Positions 2,845 through 14,324 of a DNA stretch of 14,324 nucleotides are shown one piece after another. This DNA is from Sediminibacterium sp. (GTDB lineage Bacteria; Bacteroidota; Bacteroidia; Chitinophagales; Chitinophagaceae). The translations under genes were made by a program, and so were the position numbers. The notes under the pieces were generated by a model that worked only from the letters and a program-made list of their open reading frames with translations, searched no databases and was not told the DNA's origin. The stretch is taken from contig JAQBNJ010000170.1 of assembly GCA_028288645.1 (NCBI GenBank), forward strand, positions 1 to 14,324, given 5' to 3'. Numbering within the stretch: the stretch's first letter is position 1; each line of letters begins with the position of its first letter.

Positions 2845-3462
2845 ATGATTACCGACAAGAAAGAACATATCATGAACGCAGCCATTGAACTCTTTGCTGA
2901 GAAGGGTTTTGAAGGCAGTTCGATACGTGACCTCGCATCGCGCGCAGATGTGAACGTGGCGATGGTTAATTATTATTTTGGTTCGAAGGATAAATTATTT
3001 GAAGCCATTGTTGAATACAAGGCATCATTCATGCGTGGCAAGATGGATGAGATCGAAGCAAACAAAACGCTCACCGAAATTGAAAAGATCGACCTGATCA
3101 TAGAGAATTATGTAGCCAAAATATTATCCAACCCGTCTTTTCACCGTATTCTTTACCAGGAGTTACTGATGGGTGAACGCGAAGCCATGCATGAAAACAT
3201 CGTAAAAGTATTTGTAAGAAATATTACCACGCTGCGAAATATCATTGAACAGGGAGTTAAGAAAAAGGTCTTTAAAAAAGTGGACCCCGAACTTACCATG
3301 GCCACCCTGATCGGCACCATCAACCAGGTAATGCTATCCAAAGCCATGTGCAATATGCTGATGGATCGTGATGGAAGTTTTGATCCTTACACTGACCTGG
3401 TTTTCAGGCAGAGGCTGATCAAACATTTAAAACAGATCATCCACTCCTACTTACTCAATTAA
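2845..3462 (+). CDS. TetR/AcrR-family transcriptional repressor of the efflux operon
   Basis: 205 residues, the normal TetR length. The N-terminal DNA-binding domain spans about residues 5-52, with the family pattern IMNAAIELFAEKGFEGSSIR followed by a recognition helix region (ADVNVAMVNYYFGSKDKL) that matches the TetR consensus closely. The remaining roughly 150 residues are helical and form the ligand and dimer domain, whose inducer cannot be told from sequence. It is the first gene of a same-strand cluster with the adaptor, pump and outer membrane channel. Two inverted repeats overlapping its own promoter imply autorepression and repression of the pump, relieved by a pump substrate or a related molecule. 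Confidence 0.93.
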   Translation: MITDKKEHIMNAAIELFAEKGFEGSSIRDLASRADVNVAMVNYYFGSKDKLFEAIVEYKASFMRGKMDEIEANKTLTEIEKIDLIIENYVAKILSNPSFHRILYQELLMGEREAMHENIVKVFVRNITTLRNIIEQGVKKKVFKKVDPELTMATLIGTINQVMLSKAMCNMLMDRDGSFDPYTDLVFRQRLIKHLKQIIHSYLLN

Positions 3463-7586: not shown

Positions 7587-7723
7587 TTTCACGCAAAGGC
7601 GCCAAGGGGCAAAGGCGCCAGGGAAGTTTGAAGTAGATAGTACGTCTCCAATATGTAGAAGTGTATTGTTCGAGCGGCAACTTTGCATAAGAAAACTTTG
7701 CGCCTTCGCACCTTTGCGTGAAA
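7587..7723. repeat. Palindromic repeat with TTTCACGCAAAG arms (copy 2)
   Basis: Outer arms TTTCACGCAAAG (7587-7598) and CTTTGCGTGAAA (7712-7723) are identical to those of the element at 2667-2725, but the interior is longer and contains GGCGCCAAGG and AACTTTGCGCC-type units. It lies between the convergent TolC-like and SET-domain genes, ending one base before the stop of the latter. As a large hairpin it could limit transcription in both directions. Confidence 0.8.
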
Positions 7724-7724
7724 C

Positions 7725-8111
7725 TCACTTCGCTTCAAACCAGATCGGTGTTTCATCTCCCGGCTCTGCATTATAATTGATGAAGAGCTCCTCTCCTTCT
7801 TCAATATCCCGGACAGTTTTAATACGCATCAATTCTTCTTCAAGATCCATTTCGTAGTCGCAGTTGGCTTGATAGGAATGGTTGTACATGGAGAGATACC
7901 CCCATGCGATGCACGCCTTATCGCCTTTTGTGTCACCCCATTCAAAAATGTAATTATACAGGATCGTTTTTTCCACCTCTTTCCTGTCTTTTACGCTTAA
8001 CACCAATACAGGCGATATTTCAATGATCGTGTCTGCAGGAATGCGCTCTGAAGCAAACACACCTTTACCACCTTTGTCTGATGCTGCTATAACTAAAACC
8101 GGTAGTATCAT
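7725..8111 (-). CDS. Small SET-domain protein, putative lysine methyltransferase
   Basis: 128 residues from the ATG at 8111. A longer reading frame reaches an ATG at 8177, but that stretch is one arm and the loop of an inverted repeat, so I reject it. SET features: the opening segment GGKGVFASERIPADTIIE (15-31, S-adenosylmethionine side), the knot motif YNHSYQANCDY (76-86, matching the NHSxxxNC core of SET domains) and the C-terminal GEELFINYN (106-114), whose Tyr is the usual catalytic residue. SET enzymes move a methyl group from S-adenosylmethionine to protein lysine. The protein is little more than the bare domain, and the post-SET cysteine cluster of eukaryotic enzymes is missing. The substrate is unknown. 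Confidence 0.82.
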   Translation of the reverse strand: MILPVLVIAASDKGGKGVFASERIPADTIIEISPVLVLSVKDRKEVEKTILYNYIFEWGDTKGDKACIAWGYLSMYNHSYQANCDYEMDLEEELMRIKTVRDIEEGEELFINYNAEPGDETPIWFEAK

Positions 8112-8120
8112 GAGAGTTGT

Positions 8121-8206
8121 TGAATATTGAACATTGAACAAGGAATTTTGAATTTTGAAGTGGGGGCGGCTCAGCATTCAAAATTCCTTGTTCAATATTC
8201 AATATT
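8121..8206. repeat. Near-perfect 31-bp inverted repeat between divergent genes
   Basis: The right arm 8176-8206 and left arm 8123-8153 match as inverted copies at 30 of 31 positions, with a 22-nt G-rich loop. The arms contain GGAATTTTGAAT and ATTCAAAATTCC. The element fills the divergent gap between the SET-domain and MgtE genes and must affect or carry their promoters. I see no clear -7 box within it. Confidence 0.85.
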
Positions 8207-9843: not shown

Positions 9844-9916
9844 AAAAAAGCCCCACGGAGTACGCAGGGCTTAAGAATAATCTTCGGCTTATAGCCTTAT
9901 TGTGATAAGCTTTCAG
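9844..9916 (-). ncRNA. tracrRNA of the type II-C CRISPR-Cas system
   Basis: Read on the minus strand from 9916 the parts follow the standard order. The anti-repeat TGAAAGCTTATCACAAT (9915-9899) comes first. A nexus hairpin GGCT-ATA-AGCC (9896-9886) is preceded by AA as in Bacteroidetes II-C tracrRNAs. A small hairpin AAGA-TTAT-TCTT (9884-9873) comes next. The terminator is a 6-bp stem AAGCCC...GGGCTT (9872-9867 with 9853-9848) running into T6 (9849-9844). The RNA pairs with the repeat part of crRNAs, is processed with them by RNase III in known systems, and anchors the guide in Cas9. It can pair with GTTGTGATTTGCTTTCA through 14 Watson-Crick pairs, one G-U and two U-U mismatches forming an internal bulge. 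The 5' end, near 9914-9916, is inferred from the promoter box. Confidence 0.9.
9848..9872 (-). terminator. Rho-independent terminator of the tracrRNA
   Basis: Minus-strand stem AAGCCC (9872-9867) pairs with GGGCTT (9853-9848) around a 13-nt loop. The T-run 9849-9844 starts in the 3' arm and continues past it. In type II systems this hairpin also forms the 3' scaffold of the guide. Confidence 0.88.
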
Positions 9917-9919
9917 AAA

Positions 9920-9927
9920 CAAATATA
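9920..9927 (-). promoter_or_regulatory. -7 box of the tracrRNA promoter
   Basis: Minus strand TATATTTG is a full match to TAnnTTTG. It lies 4 nt before the start of the anti-repeat, so transcription would begin almost exactly at the anti-repeat and give a compact tracrRNA of about 72 nt. The -33 region is only T-rich, without a clean TTTG. Confidence 0.7.
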
Positions 9928-10031
9928 AGACTTAATTATACCATAAAAATAAATCGTGCACAGGTTATACATAAGTACAAACAATCATATATTTAATTTT
10001 TATATGTGAAATATAAAGTATTTTAGGATCT

Positions 10032-10133
10032 TATTCACCTACAAGGCATATATTTACTAAACGTGACAGGGTGGCTGGATAGCAGGTATTCTTTAAGCAC
10101 ACGTTAGATACTTTATTTATGTGTAGGTGAATA
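10032..10133. repeat. Perfect 12-bp inverted repeat flanking a second imperfect stem
   Basis: TATTCACCTACA (10032-10043) and TGTAGGTGAATA (10122-10133) are exact inverted copies. Nested inside, CTAAACGTG (10057-10065) can pair with CACGTTAG (10100-10107) with one bulged A. The right 12-mer ends exactly where the CRISPR-repeat-like sequence begins, so the pair may be a seed and its target rather than, or as well as, a hairpin. By rough counting, an exact 12-mer of this mixed composition is unlikely by chance in under 300 bp. Confidence 0.8.
10049..10056 (+). promoter_or_regulatory. Weak candidate -7 box for the cas9 leader
   Basis: TATATTTA matches five of the six fixed positions of TAnnTTTG; a T-run (10021-10024) lies 24 bp upstream without a true TTTG. 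If used, transcription would begin near 10062 and the cas9 leader would be about 140 nt, containing the repeat-like sequence. The 12-mer at 10032-10043 would then fall between the -33 and -7 boxes. An identical box near 9988 shows that such matches are cheap in this AT-rich stretch. Confidence 0.25.
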
Positions 10134-10179
10134 GTTGTGATTTGCTTTCATCAAACTTTTTGAACTGCTATCCTTTTTT
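10077..10179 (+). terminator. Candidate terminator/attenuator stem enclosing the repeat-like element
   Basis: GGATAGCAG (10077-10085) and CTGCTATCC (10165-10173) are exact 9-bp inverted copies, and T6 (10174-10179) follows the right arm directly, 21 nt before the cas9 ATG. The stem encloses 79 nt, long for an intrinsic terminator. The inner part can fold further through TCAAA-CTT-TTTGA (10151-10163). It overlaps and competes in topology with the 12-bp inverted repeat, so the two folds would form a pseudoknot or alternate. Confidence 0.4.
10134..10150 (+). repeat. Solitary CRISPR-repeat-like sequence upstream of cas9
   Basis: GTTGTGATTTGCTTTCA matches, from memory, the start of type II-C repeats of Bacteroidetes. 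It is identical at 14 of 17 positions to the plus-strand image of the tracrRNA anti-repeat (ATTGTGATAAGCTTTCA, 9899-9915), so as plus-strand RNA it could pair with the tracrRNA much as a crRNA does. There is only one copy in the window and no array. It could be part of a crRNA-like regulatory RNA or the cas9 leader, a relic of an ancestral array end, or, read on the minus strand, a second anti-repeat; the last lacks the AAGG nexus that should follow. Confidence 0.75.
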
Positions 10180-10200
10180 ACTTTACCCAATACTAAAAAA

Positions 10201-13200
10201 ATGGAAAAAATCATTGGACTTGACGTTGGAACAAATTCTATTGGTTGGGCTATCAGAGATACTCACGAAAAGCAAAATCAAATTGTTGCTAAAGGTGTAC
10301 TCACTTTTGATAAGGGTGTAGGCGAAGGAAAATCTGGTGAATTTCCACTGGTACAAAAAAGAACTGAAAGCAGGAGCAAAAGAAGAAACTATCAAGCCGA
10401 AAAATATAGGAAATGGGCATTGTTACAAACCTTGATTGAGCAAAAAATGTGTCCTTTAAGTATCGATGACCTTAATGAATGGAAAACATACACAAAAGGC
10501 ATTGGACGAAAATATCCTCAAAGTGAGTCTTTTATACAATGGCTTCGTTTTGATTTTGATGGAGATGGGAAACCGGATTTTGAAAAGTTAGGTTTTAGCA
10601 AACATGAAAGCTATTATTTATTTAGAAAGTTAGTTATTAGTAATGACCATCTGGATAAAAAAATATTTGCTGACAATCCGTACATCTTAGGCAGAGTACT
10701 TTACCAATTAGTTCAGCGTAGAGGTTACCGAGGTAGAGATGATGAAGATGAAGAAGCAAAAACAATTTTAAAAGGAAGCGAAAAAACTGGAACAAAAGGA
10801 GTTGAGGATATTTCACCATTAATTGAAGAATATAGGACTTTAGGTGCGGCATTATATCATTTAAGTAAAACTAAAAATGAACGTATTCGTAAACGGTATA
10901 ATCTTAGAACAGACTATGAACTGGAGTTAAAAGAAATTTGTCGTGTCCAAAACCTTAATGATTTCATTTACAAAAAACTATGGAAAGCCATAATTTGGCA
11001 ACGTCCCTTGAGAAGTCAAAAAGGGTTGGTTGGATACTGTACTTTGGAAACACCGGTAAAAAATACTGCCAATAAGTTTATAAAAGCAGGTAAAAAGAGA
11101 TGTCCTCTAAGTCACCCACTTTACGAAGAATTCAGGACATGGGTTTTTATTAATAATTTAAAAATACAATTACCGGAAAATGTAAACAAGGCTACTACCT
11201 TAAAAGAAAACATTTACCCGCTTTTTTATAAATCTTCCCGAGATTTCAAACTAAGTAGTATTAATAAAGAGTTACGAAAACTCAATGGTAATATTTTATC
11301 AAAACACAGGAAAGGCGGGAAAAACAAAGAAGATGATACTAAGGTCATATCCTGCACTTTACTCAATAGTTTAAAAAACGTTTTAGGCAATGACTGGAAG
11401 GATAAATATGGTTGGTCCGAATCTCTCTTTGATCAACCAAAAACTTGTAAATATTCTTTTGAAGACATATGGCATATACTTTTTACTTTCGATTCAAAAG
11501 AAAAGCTTAAAGAGTTTGCGCTAAATAAATTATTATTAAGTGACGATATTGCTGAAGATTTTTCAAAAATTAAACTACAGCAGGGTTATGCAACGCTTAG
11601 TTTATCTGCTATAAAGAAAATATTACCGTATTTATACCAAGGTTTTATTTATAGCGAAGCAGTTTATCTAGCCAATCTTCACAAGGTAATAGGTAATGAT
11701 GTAAAAATTGACACTGATTTAGTGAACACCTTATCGATTGAAATCGAAAAAATAATTCGTCAGCAAACCCATGACAGGCAATTAATCAACGTTGTCAATA
11801 ACCTGATAAGCGACAAACTAAATAGTGACCTACCATTCAGTACGGATTCAAAATACACATTAACAGATGATGATAAAAACGCCATTATAGAAAAAATAAT
11901 TTCTGTATTTGGAATAGCAACCTGGAATATCAAAACTGAAAAAGAAAAACAAACAAATTTGGAATACGTAAGTGGTCAGTATTTACAATTTTTACAAACC
12001 TATAGAATTTCAAAAAATGGATCTCCCTACACAAAAACAGGAAGTTTACACGATAGGATTTTTGATTATCTAAAAGACACATATAATGTTCCGGAAGGAA
12101 ATAAAAAAAATCTATGGCACCCATCCGAGCAGGAAACTTATGAACAAGCCACTATAAAAAATGGTGTTCCGGTTTTAGGCAAGCCCCAACCCATAAGCAA
12201 TGGTTTTAAAAACCCTATGGCACTTAAAACTTTGCACAAATTAAGAAGGTTGATAAATTACTTATTACAGGAAGGAAAAATAGATGAAGACACCAGGGTT
12301 GTTATTGAAATCGCAAGAGAGTTAAATGATGCTAACAGAAGAAAAGCAATCGAAAAATGGCAAAAAGACAGAGAAAAAGAAAATAATGATTATAAAAAAA
12401 TTATCGATGAGATTAATGAAGAATGCAAAACCAATTTTGATAGAGAAGACAAAACCCTCGTTGATAAAATAAGGTTGTGGAAAGAACAGAATATGCGTTG
12501 CTTATATACAGGCAACCTGATAAACATGTGCGATTTATTTAATGGTATTAAATATGATCTTGAGCATACGGTTCCCGCCAGTATGAGCTTTGACAATGAA
12601 CTCAAAAACTTAACAATTGCAACAACAAAATATAACAGAGATATAAAGAGTAACAGAATTCCGTTTGATTGCCCCAACTATGATAATGAAAAAACAATTG
12701 GCGGCCTTGTATGCACATCAATTCTTTCAACGTTAGAATTAATATTTGGAAGCATAGATATAGAAGAAAAAATAGTAAAAGGCAAAATTGAACGGATAGT
12801 TAGTTCTGAAAGAACAGATCAGATATTAAGTCTGATAGATTTTTGGAATAATGAGTCTAAAAAGGCTACCACAAAAGATAGAAAAGACTATTGTATTCAA
12901 CAAAGACATCGATATAAATTCGACCTGGAATATTGGCGTAAGAAATTAGAGACATTTACGATTAAAGAATACAAAATAGGCTGGAGAAACAGCCAGTTGA
13001 AAGATACTCAAATCGTCACTAAATATGCCTTGCCATATTTAAAAACTGTTTTTACGAAAGTAGAAGTGCAAAAAGGGTCTGTTACTGATGATTTCAGAAA
13101 AATTTATAAAATACAACCTCGCTTAGAAAAAAAGAAAAGGAATAAGCACAGCCATCATGCTGTTGATGCTACTGTTCTTACTTTAATACCGCCTGCCGCA

Positions 13201-14324
13201 ATAAGAGACAAAATTTTATTAAGATATAATGAAGCAAAAGATCAGAACCTACCTTATCATGAGTCTGTAAGACAATGGCCAGACTTTGAAGGCAAAACAA
13301 TTAAGAATTGGATTGAAGATGAAATTTTAATCAACTTTCAACCAGAATACCGGACAATTGCTGACACTTACAAAAATGTCCGTAAACGCGGCAAACAACA
13401 GTTTGTAAAAGAAAAGAAAGATCAAAAATGGCATTACAAATTGGATGACTCAGGCAAAAAAATACCAATCGTAGCTCAAGGGGATACAATAAGAGGTCAA
13501 TTACATAAAGAAACCTTTTTTGCAGCTATTAAACAACCACTCTACAAGCAAGTAGATAATAAATTCATTCCTGAAACTGATGGGCAGGGAAATTTTATTT
13601 TTCAACCCAATGAGAAAAGAGGTGATAACATTTTTATTGCTACAAAAGTCTTTTTAACTGATTTCGAAAAAATCGAAGATTTAGAAATCATTATCGACCC
13701 TAACTTAAGGCAATATTTAAAAGAAGAACTAGTACGAAGGCAAACAGATGGGAAGACTTTTGCTCAATCAATAGCTGAACCGATATGGGCTTTCGGAAAA
13801 AGTATTGATAAAAATGGATTTACAATACATCCCCTTAGACACATCCGTTGTAAAGTCAAAAGCGGAGGGGGTGGATTTCTCAACAATCCCGCAAGCATTA
13901 AATCTTTTAAAGCATACGTTTCAAAAAAATCATATAAGCAAGTTATCTATGCGCAAAATGGAGAAACCAGTATTTGTGCACTCTATCAATCAATTGAGAA
14001 TGAAGAATTAATTCGCGAAATAGTTCCCTATTCAATCCTTGATATTTCTAAAACAGAAAACAAAACCAGTTTAGAAGATGCAGTAGAAAAGAATTTTGAA
14101 AAAACAATAAAGAAGGTTAAACATTTGATTCCTTTGTATTCTACGCTTAAAATAAATCAAAAAGTGCTTTTTATAGAAGATAATATTGAAGAATTAAAAA
14201 CAATGTCAATCAAAGAATTAAGTTCTCGTTTATACTTAATCTCAAAATTTGAGGATGGCAGAATTTCCTTTAAGCACCACCTTAATTCCATGCCAGAAGA
14301 TGAATTAAAAATAGAAATGAAACG
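10201..14324 (+). CDS. cas9: Cas9 endonuclease, type II-C, 3' end outside the window
   Basis: Open from the ATG at 10201 to the window edge: 1374 codons and two bases without a stop. RNA-guided DNA endonuclease. RuvC-I is IIGLDVGTNSIGWAI with catalytic D8. An Arg/Lys-rich bridge helix follows at about 52-75 (KRTESRSKRRNYQAEKYRK), then a long recognition lobe. RuvC-II is VVIEIARELN with E703. HNH is YDLEHTVPASMSFDNE with H789 as general base and metal-site N812. RuvC-III is HSHHAVDA with H986 and D989. The C-terminal part after about 1090 (GDTIRGQLHKETFFAAI) starts the guide- and PAM-binding region. All nuclease residues are intact, so both strands should be cut. The size exceeds the usual 1000-1100 residues of compact II-C enzymes but fits the large Bacteroidetes branch. 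The sequence is much richer in A+T than the genes to its left, suggesting transfer. No Shine-Dalgarno sequence is seen before the ATG. Confidence 0.96.
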   Translation, partial: MEKIIGLDVGTNSIGWAIRDTHEKQNQIVAKGVLTFDKGVGEGKSGEFPLVQKRTESRSKRRNYQAEKYRKWALLQTLIEQKMCPLSIDDLNEWKTYTKGIGRKYPQSESFIQWLRFDFDGDGKPDFEKLGFSKHESYYLFRKLVISNDHLDKKIFADNPYILGRVLYQLVQRRGYRGRDDEDEEAKTILKGSEKTGTKGVEDISPLIEEYRTLGAALYHLSKTKNERIRKRYNLRTDYELELKEICRVQNLNDFIYKKLWKAIIWQRPLRSQKGLVGYCTLETPVKNTANKFIKAGKKRCPLSHPLYEEFRTWVFINNLKIQLPENVNKATTLKENIYPLFYKSSRDFKLSSINKELRKLNGNILSKHRKGGKNKEDDTKVISCTLLNSLKNVLGNDWKDKYGWSESLFDQPKTCKYSFEDIWHILFTFDSKEKLKEFALNKLLLSDDIAEDFSKIKLQQGYATLSLSAIKKILPYLYQGFIYSEAVYLANLHKVIGNDVKIDTDLVNTLSIEIEKIIRQQTHDRQLINVVNNLISDKLNSDLPFSTDSKYTLTDDDKNAIIEKIISVFGIATWNIKTEKEKQTNLEYVSGQYLQFLQTYRISKNGSPYTKTGSLHDRIFDYLKDTYNVPEGNKKNLWHPSEQETYEQATIKNGVPVLGKPQPISNGFKNPMALKTLHKLRRLINYLLQEGKIDEDTRVVIEIARELNDANRRKAIEKWQKDREKENNDYKKIIDEINEECKTNFDREDKTLVDKIRLWKEQNMRCLYTGNLINMCDLFNGIKYDLEHTVPASMSFDNELKNLTIATTKYNRDIKSNRIPFDCPNYDNEKTIGGLVCTSILSTLELIFGSIDIEEKIVKGKIERIVSSERTDQILSLIDFWNNESKKATTKDRKDYCIQQRHRYKFDLEYWRKKLETFTIKEYKIGWRNSQLKDTQIVTKYALPYLKTVFTKVEVQKGSVTDDFRKIYKIQPRLEKKKRNKHSHHAVDATVLTLIPPAAIRDKILLRYNEAKDQNLPYHESVRQWPDFEGKTIKNWIEDEILINFQPEYRTIADTYKNVRKRGKQQFVKEKKDQKWHYKLDDSGKKIPIVAQGDTIRGQLHKETFFAAIKQPLYKQVDNKFIPETDGQGNFIFQPNEKRGDNIFIATKVFLTDFEKIEDLEIIIDPNLRQYLKEELVRRQTDGKTFAQSIAEPIWAFGKSIDKNGFTIHPLRHIRCKVKSGGGGFLNNPASIKSFKAYVSKKSYKQVIYAQNGETSICALYQSIENEELIREIVPYSILDISKTENKTSLEDAVEKNFEKTIKKVKHLIPLYSTLKINQKVLFIEDNIEELKTMSIKELSSRLYLISKFEDGRISFKHHLNSMPEDELKIEMK

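Follow-up and report, generated by a model that had tools for sequence, protein, structure and literature searches.

The natural single guide of type II-A, tracr-L of Streptococcus pyogenes, was reportedly described by Workman in 2021, and crRNA-like regulators known as CreR, including those of type V-A, are said to have been presented by Shmakov in 2023. The former, described for type II-A (PMC11417352, PMC12216829, PMC8616872), guides Cas9 to the promoter Pcas by an 11-nt match (PMC8616872), and the same promoter is repressed in trans by tracr-S together with an artificial crRNA that matches it over 11 nt (PMC11417352). CreA is a crRNA-like regulator of class 1 systems (PMC8730458, PMC9458426), the scaRNA of the type II-B system of Francisella novicida acts on lipoprotein genes (PMC8730458), and arrays can give extraneous crRNAs (ecrRNAs), i.e. 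a repeat with a non-invader guide (PMC12080349, PMC13187072). Concerning the other subtypes, PMC8616872 (2021) states that tracr-L was not found outside type II-A, and the literature consulted here describes it for that subtype alone. The locus analysed here, contained in a window of 14,324 nt (the whole stretch of DNA under study), carries a lone repeat-like element upstream of cas9, which the first-pass annotation, made from the sequence alone, interpreted as a possible crRNA-like autoregulator of cas9; the comparison with relatives strongly supports this interpretation.

The cas9 locus and its lone repeat-like element

The cas9 gene (10201-14324, plus strand; NCBIfam TIGR01865) runs off the window end with 1374 codons present, and the closest relatives of its product come from Bacteroidota. 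Because the window ends inside cas9, it is assigned to type II-C by kinship with L035, L036 and L064, the three relatives inspected, all of them exhibiting the order cas9, cas1, cas2, array, with no other open reading frame of 90 aa lying between on the same strand, bar one overlapping cas1; these three thus have the type II-C gene set, cas1 and cas2 without csn2 or cas4, the window giving Cas9 only. The tracrRNA core is found on the minus strand at 9848-9915, consisting of the antirepeat TGAAAGCTTATCACAAT (9915-9899), a nexus and a terminator (9872-9848), as seen from sequence and fold, and a possible -7 box of this RNA, TATATTTG, is positioned at 9920-9927 on the same strand. The pattern of this tracrRNA, searched for in 395 genomes of the phylum, was found in the window only, and the viral contigs searched yielded no relative of the Cas9.

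The repeat-like 17-mer GTTGTGATTTGCTTTCA (10134-10150, plus strand) agrees at every position with the opening 17 nt of the type II-C array repeats in the relatives L019, L024, L029 and L031, so that the expectation of an array repeat starting in this way has been borne out in relatives; the remainder of the 46-48 nt repeat is missing after 10150. The seed, or guide, TGTAGGTGAATA (10122-10133, plus strand) ends at the repeat start and matches exactly, over 12 nt, the minus strand at 10043-10032, the candidate protospacer upstream of cas9, with AGATCC following on its PAM side (10026-10031, minus strand). Both the 17-mer and the 12-nt match, as claimed by the first-pass annotation, are thus confirmed in sequence, and the claimed ability of the 17-mer to pair with the local tracrRNA is backed by a co-fold, in which the repeat part and the minus-strand tracrRNA form 6 bp, a 2x2 loop and 7 bp. 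A stem would close around the guide according to the fold of 10061-10180, its 5' arm GGATAGCAG occupying 10077-10085 and its 3' arm CTGCTATCC, together with the T-run TTTTTT, 10165-10179 (both plus strand); the latter may serve as a terminator of the guide RNA or as an attenuator before cas9. This stem comprises 9 bp in the window and 14 bp in L036, which has the same layout with Ts after the 3' arm. The stem and the T-run go beyond the first-pass annotation, as do the possible hairpin of the two 12-mers and the fused form of relatives treated below.

Seed and target are the only occurrences of the 12-mer in the 2.8 Mb of this assembly (57% complete, 571 contigs), for which we estimate about 0.3 chance sites. 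With the first 16 nt of the repeat and up to two mismatches, the search of the whole assembly gave this copy and two single sites with two mismatches, but no array. The Rfam family CRISPR-DR49 matches the element weakly (19.4 bits, the gathering score being 41), and neither the window nor the nine relatives searched gave a hit to any Rfam family at the gathering score. Elsewhere in the window, a 36-nt inverted repeat (92%) lies between two genes at 8123-8206, and short tandem repeats of the CTTTGCGC type occur at 2690-2725, 7587-7618 and 7696-7723, with inverted copies about 5 kb apart; the genes flanked by them are, judging from their translations, presumably a TetR-HlyD-MFS-TolC efflux operon.

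Guides and targets in related loci

The sample covered 86 cas9 upstream regions, 71 of them distinct, obtained by Cas9 alignment and by searches of sampled genomes, with 73 of the 76 loci from one relative collection being scanned. Elements with up to four mismatches to GTTGTGAWTTGCTTTC were collected, and for the sequence directly 5' of each the length of its match to the rest of the region was then determined. Fourteen loci—the window, L018, L034, L036, L039, L041, L044, L046, L057, L064, L073, L102, L141 and L142—have a repeat-like element upstream of cas9, the last 10-12 guide nt of which are matched at a site also upstream of that gene, while 57 of the 71 distinct regions are without such a guide. 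Among the guide-bearing loci, L034 belongs to Flavobacterium salilacus SaA2.12, L041 to Epilithonimonas caeni DSM 17710 and L057 to Hyunsoonleella pacifica SW033, all of them cultured strains. The match stops at the repeat boundary in 13 of the 14, extending one base into the repeat in L142, which is also the single locus where a match of at least 10 nt survives a shift of the boundary by one base into the repeat. The target is on the minus strand in the window and on the plus strand in the other 13 loci; in 12 of these 13, guide and target lie on opposite strands, L036 being the one with direct orientation and with no other target for its guide at up to one mismatch. The sister Cas9 of L018, 78% identical to that of the window, also has a cis guide with a target flanked by N4CC. 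Cas9s that are 75-80% identical are further encoded on metagenome contigs (P0003-P0012). Concerning other Cas9 clades, the scan of 25 loci (among L060-L093, L074, L080 and L092 being left out), most of them with repeats starting with GTTGTGG, revealed no lone element with a seed of at least 10 nt and N4CC; the 10-nt matches in L070, which is the antirepeat, and in L084, flanked by CTAAAC, were not counted.

As far as chance is concerned, suffix matches within a region reach at least 10 nt at 2.2%, at least 11 nt at 1.2% and at least 12 nt at 0.77% of positions (47,566 positions in 49 cas9 upstream regions). Among the elements with up to two mismatches within 1500 nt upstream of cas9, 11 of 15 have a match of at least 10 nt, the other four belonging to the decayed array of L019, and among those with three or four mismatches, a class made up mostly of chance elements, the share is 4 of 40: L044, L073 and L142, with N4CC and counted, and L114 (14 nt, flank TATTTA), not counted. 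When whole loci with their arrays are taken, 860 elements with up to two mismatches are found, 11 guides matching the 300 nt upstream of cas9 by at least 10 nt, with the 12-nt match of L141 taken from the scan of upstream regions, as its entry in this count was a self-match; of the other 849, a single one has a match of that length upstream of cas9, an array spacer of L031 without N4CC. Elements standing alone, with none other within 150 nt, are guides in 11 of 13 cases, the remaining two, in L055 and L078, lying inside or after cas9. In a swap of guides and regions between the 14 loci, all 14 own pairs reach 10-12 nt, as opposed to 2 of 182 foreign pairs, both of these combining L018 and L073, two loci with guide and target in common, and none of the remaining 180 reaches 10 nt; guide and target therefore co-vary, as had been anticipated, in the relatives having the device. 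It should be pointed out that the all-element counts are the less biased controls, because the 14 loci of the swap were picked for having seeds. The position of the tracrRNA also differs: where more than 150 nt separate the nexus from cas9, as in 11 regions, a guide is always present, in comparison with 2 of 65 regions (51 distinct) with a shorter gap, L102 and L141, the nexus pattern having been found in 76 of the 86 regions and the 10 without a minus-strand nexus, L036 included, being omitted here.

Some further elements are worth recording. In L019, four decayed repeats GTTATGATTTGCTTTCAGATTATGGTA with a period of 64-66 nt occupy 1878-2101 upstream of cas9, apart from the array at the locus start. 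L078 has one exact repeat start on the minus strand, 294 nt past the cas9 start and behind a 111-codon cas9 fragment, perhaps reflecting a broken locus, and the L031 spacer ending near 14888, with a 14-nt match upstream of its own cas9 and the flank TATCGA, is possibly self-targeting.

The sequence adjoining the target is N4CC in 13 of the 14 guide-bearing loci, window included, the background of CC being 3.0%, and position 6 of the flank is C in all 14. The flanks in the 12 loci other than the window and L036 are ACAACC, ATGACC, TTAACC, TGAACC, TAAACC, ACAACC, ATAACC, TAAACC, AAAGCC, ACAACC, ATGTCC and GACCCC, and that of L036 is AAATTC, not N4CC. The idea that AGATCC could act as a PAM has gained support in this way, since it fits the N4CC adjoining 12 of the 13 other targets, that of the sister L018 among them. 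The C-terminal parts of the L018 and window Cas9s are 77% identical over 245 aligned residues; the same part from L036 is 35% identical to that of the window, and those from L034 to L064, with N4CC, also reach only 34-43%. Riemerella anatipestifer, the antirepeat of which is TGAAAGCAATTCACAA, gave no PAM in silico (PMC5006608), and its acquired spacers have 5'-GWATTN upstream (PMC6008519); read in the crRNA orientation, this would correspond to NAATWC downstream, a motif that the AAATTC of L036 would fit. An independent search for the PAM, in which phages were compared with the arrays of L034, L046 and L064, gave no usable protospacer, the matches in Riemerella phages turning out on reading to be repeats, and a Shigella-named record being the same match. 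Mini-CRISPR arrays occur in Riemerella phages, with one to three full repeats of the type II-C kind and 30-nt spacers (L124, HQ396194, about 31639-31745; L125; L126, OR089151, about 29313-29490), and their spacers have no convincing cas9-promoter target in the loci examined. N4CC is a PAM prediction for a Cas9 family made from sequence alone, possible because each organism keeps a target that must be bound.

The weak -7-like box expected beside the target was found at 10049-10056 on the plus strand; this box, TATATTTA, predicted from its position only, is one mismatch from TAnnTTTG, the promoter motif of Bacteroidetes (PMC10309648), and visual inspection of the window turned up no convincing -33 box. 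Between the target and the -7-like box after it there are 5 nt, and bound Cas9 would therefore cover the region upstream of -7. In nine of the 13 loci with plus-strand targets, a box differing from TAnnTTTG at no more than one position starts 12-17 nt past the target, about 7% being expected from a background of 1.2% per position for boxes within one mismatch; in L073 an exact box lies at 26 nt, and L036, L039 and L046 have none in the 12-17 nt range. The promoters at all these targets, the one in the window included, are predictions.

Layouts of the guide and accompanying RNAs

The guide-bearing loci exhibit several layouts. The fused form, recognised by sequence and fold in eight relatives (L018, L034, L039, L044, L046, L057, L073 and L142), has the element immediately 5' of the antirepeat and on the same strand as the tracrRNA, the seed, the repeat:antirepeat stem, the nexus and the terminator making up a natural single guide; the box between repeat and antirepeat is an exact TAnnTTTG in five of the eight and lies within one mismatch of it in all eight. 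In L041, L064, L102 and L141 the element is also on the tracrRNA strand, followed, as judged by eye, by its own hairpin and T-run, so that it is probably a separate RNA. The third layout, common to the window and L036 only, has the element on the plus strand, 67-71 nt before cas9. In the window, about 220 nt separate the plus-strand guide from the minus-strand antirepeat, so that the single RNA that defines tracr-L is not formed and two RNAs have to be assumed. Taken together, the guide appears to be a separate crRNA-like RNA in six loci, window included.

In a quick tree of Cas9 with 77 rows, the row nearest to the window is L018, a locus with the fused guide. At least 12 changes of the label 'no guide' are required by this tree, nine of them forced by well supported branches, and the device has therefore often been gained, lost or rearranged. 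If the preferred reading is true, the fused and two-RNA forms would substitute for one another, L018, nearest to the window on the tree, being fused.

Between target and guide, nine relatives (L018, L034, L041, L044, L057, L064, L073, L102 and L142) carry a four-way-junction RNA, about 80 nt long and built of a closing stem and three hairpins, followed in most of them by a T-rich stretch, the loop of the middle hairpin usually being UCCAAAA. It is located, for instance, at 7869-7947(-) in L018, 7821-7902(-) in both L041 and L064, 7826-7906(-) in L073 and 2964-3049(+) in L102. In the alignment of the nine sequences, 82.6% of cells pair, compared with 39-55% in slid controls, and 19 of 25 pairs have two-sided changes, figures that are favoured by hand-trimming and by a structure taken from one member (L102); L142 aligns poorly, and L039, L046 and L141 were left out. 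Below E 0.1 the model matches, among 77 sources, only the nine sequences used for building it; its best score in the window is 10.8 bits (45-80 in the nine relatives), so this RNA was not found there by the model search, and no Rfam family matches it at the gathering score. One may speculate that it gates the guide RNA. A second tracrRNA-like element, an antirepeat followed by AAGGATTATTCCGTTGTGAAA or nearly so, has also been seen near cas9, at -760 (L018), -386 (L049), -59 (L091), -280 (L108), -304 (L112) and -171 (L120) relative to the gene, as well as in L122 and L123, with the ordinary tracrRNA present beside it in most of these loci.

Proposed mechanism, alternatives and relation to known systems

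Repeat identity, seed-target match, PAM-like flank, tracrRNA pairing, recurrence and co-variation are the properties read directly from the DNA. The reading that we hold to be very probable is that Cas9:tracrRNA with the 12-nt guide would bind the cas9 promoter without cutting and repress cas9. The segment 10122-10150 would be the core of a small crRNA-like RNA made from the plus strand, in front of or within the cas9 leader; its repeat part would pair with the separately made tracrRNA and load Cas9, and the guide would bring the complex to 10043-10032, beside the N4CC PAM and inside the putative cas9 promoter. Twelve matched nt would permit binding but no cutting, and the complex would therefore repress transcription of cas9, probably together with that of the guide RNA itself, resulting in a negative feedback on the Cas9 level. 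For the window, transcription and its start, loading, binding without cutting and repression are what we infer.

The two 12-mers, being inverted repeats 78 nt apart, could also pair in a longer transcript and be just the arms of a hairpin in a long cas9 leader, acting as an attenuator or stability element, with the repeat incidental. The fold of 10015-10185 does beat its shuffles (z -2.66, 1 of 200 as good), a second stem with its T-run overlaps the 12-mer hairpin, and guide and target are on opposite strands in all but one of the other 13 loci. The pair in that exception, L036, is in direct orientation, however, and cannot therefore form a hairpin; moreover, a hairpin needs neither the fixed repeat boundary nor N4CC, each seen in 13 of 14 loci, and a transcript starting after the -7-like box would exclude the target from the RNA, so this explanation is regarded as unlikely.

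It is still less probable that the repeat is a relic without its own function, whether as the terminal remnant of an array now gone or as the site from which an extraneous crRNA comes. Arrays can indeed leave an extra repeat with a non-invader guide, type II-C being described as suppressing such RNAs (PMC12080349), the four decayed repeats upstream of cas9 in L019 lack a match of at least 10 nt, and single repeat-like elements are found in other parts of the locus in L055 and L078; the exact 12-nt match with a PAM in the window, the rarity of matches of at least 10 nt upstream of cas9 among other repeat-like elements (1 of 849) and the first 17 nt of the repeat being intact with the remainder gone all speak against a relic. 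The guide might, finally, act mainly elsewhere, on an mRNA, a phage or a plasmid, the match to the cas9 promoter being secondary: FnoCas9 with tracrRNA and scaRNA represses lipoprotein genes (PMC8730458), and NmeCas9 binds a scaRNA acting on the efeO mRNA (PMC13431127). The 12-mer has, however, no further site in the assembly, itself 57% complete, and the targets of the relatives are all upstream of cas9, which leaves such a role very improbable.

Beyond autorepression of cas9 in the window, a wider and tentative proposal, somewhat more doubtful than not, would be that many lineages of Bacteroidota autoregulate their type II-C Cas9 through guides in interchangeable layouts—a fused single guide, a separate crRNA-like RNA with its own terminator, or, as in the window, a guide in the cas9 leader, the cas9 message releasing a guide that shuts its own promoter—and that in many relatives the four-way-junction RNA upstream of the guide gates its production like an attenuator or riboswitch, tying the level of immunity to a signal.

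With regard to the known systems, the ecrRNA resembles the window element in combining a repeat with a non-invader guide, but it originates at the array edge and is suppressed, whereas the window element stands alone and has a specific target. The scaRNA, likewise an additional small RNA that has a diverged repeat and works with tracrRNA and Cas9, differs in acting on lipoprotein genes and not on the cas9 promoter. CreA and CreR share with the window the lone degenerate repeat, the partial promoter match and repression without cleavage, the last presumed for the window; they work with Cascade or, reportedly, Cas12a, whereas the window element pairs with a tracrRNA beside cas9. The likeness to tracr-L lies in the following: a short match (11 nt there, 12 nt in the window) to the cas promoter beside a PAM, promoter and PAM being predicted in the window, a repeat part pairing with the antirepeat, and binding without cutting and autorepression, which the window would have in common with it. 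Eight relatives, by sequence and fold, even have the fused guide itself, and the type II-A trans test of crRNA and tracr-S has the same layout as the two-RNA form of the window. The differences are that tracr-L belongs to type II-A and the window, by kinship, to type II-C, and that the window guide lies between the putative promoter and cas9, with two RNAs on opposite strands. Natural-guide autoregulation of Cas9 in type II-C, in its split form in the window, is probably new and, if true, would carry the self-repression of Cas9 through natural guides beyond type II-A into type II-C.
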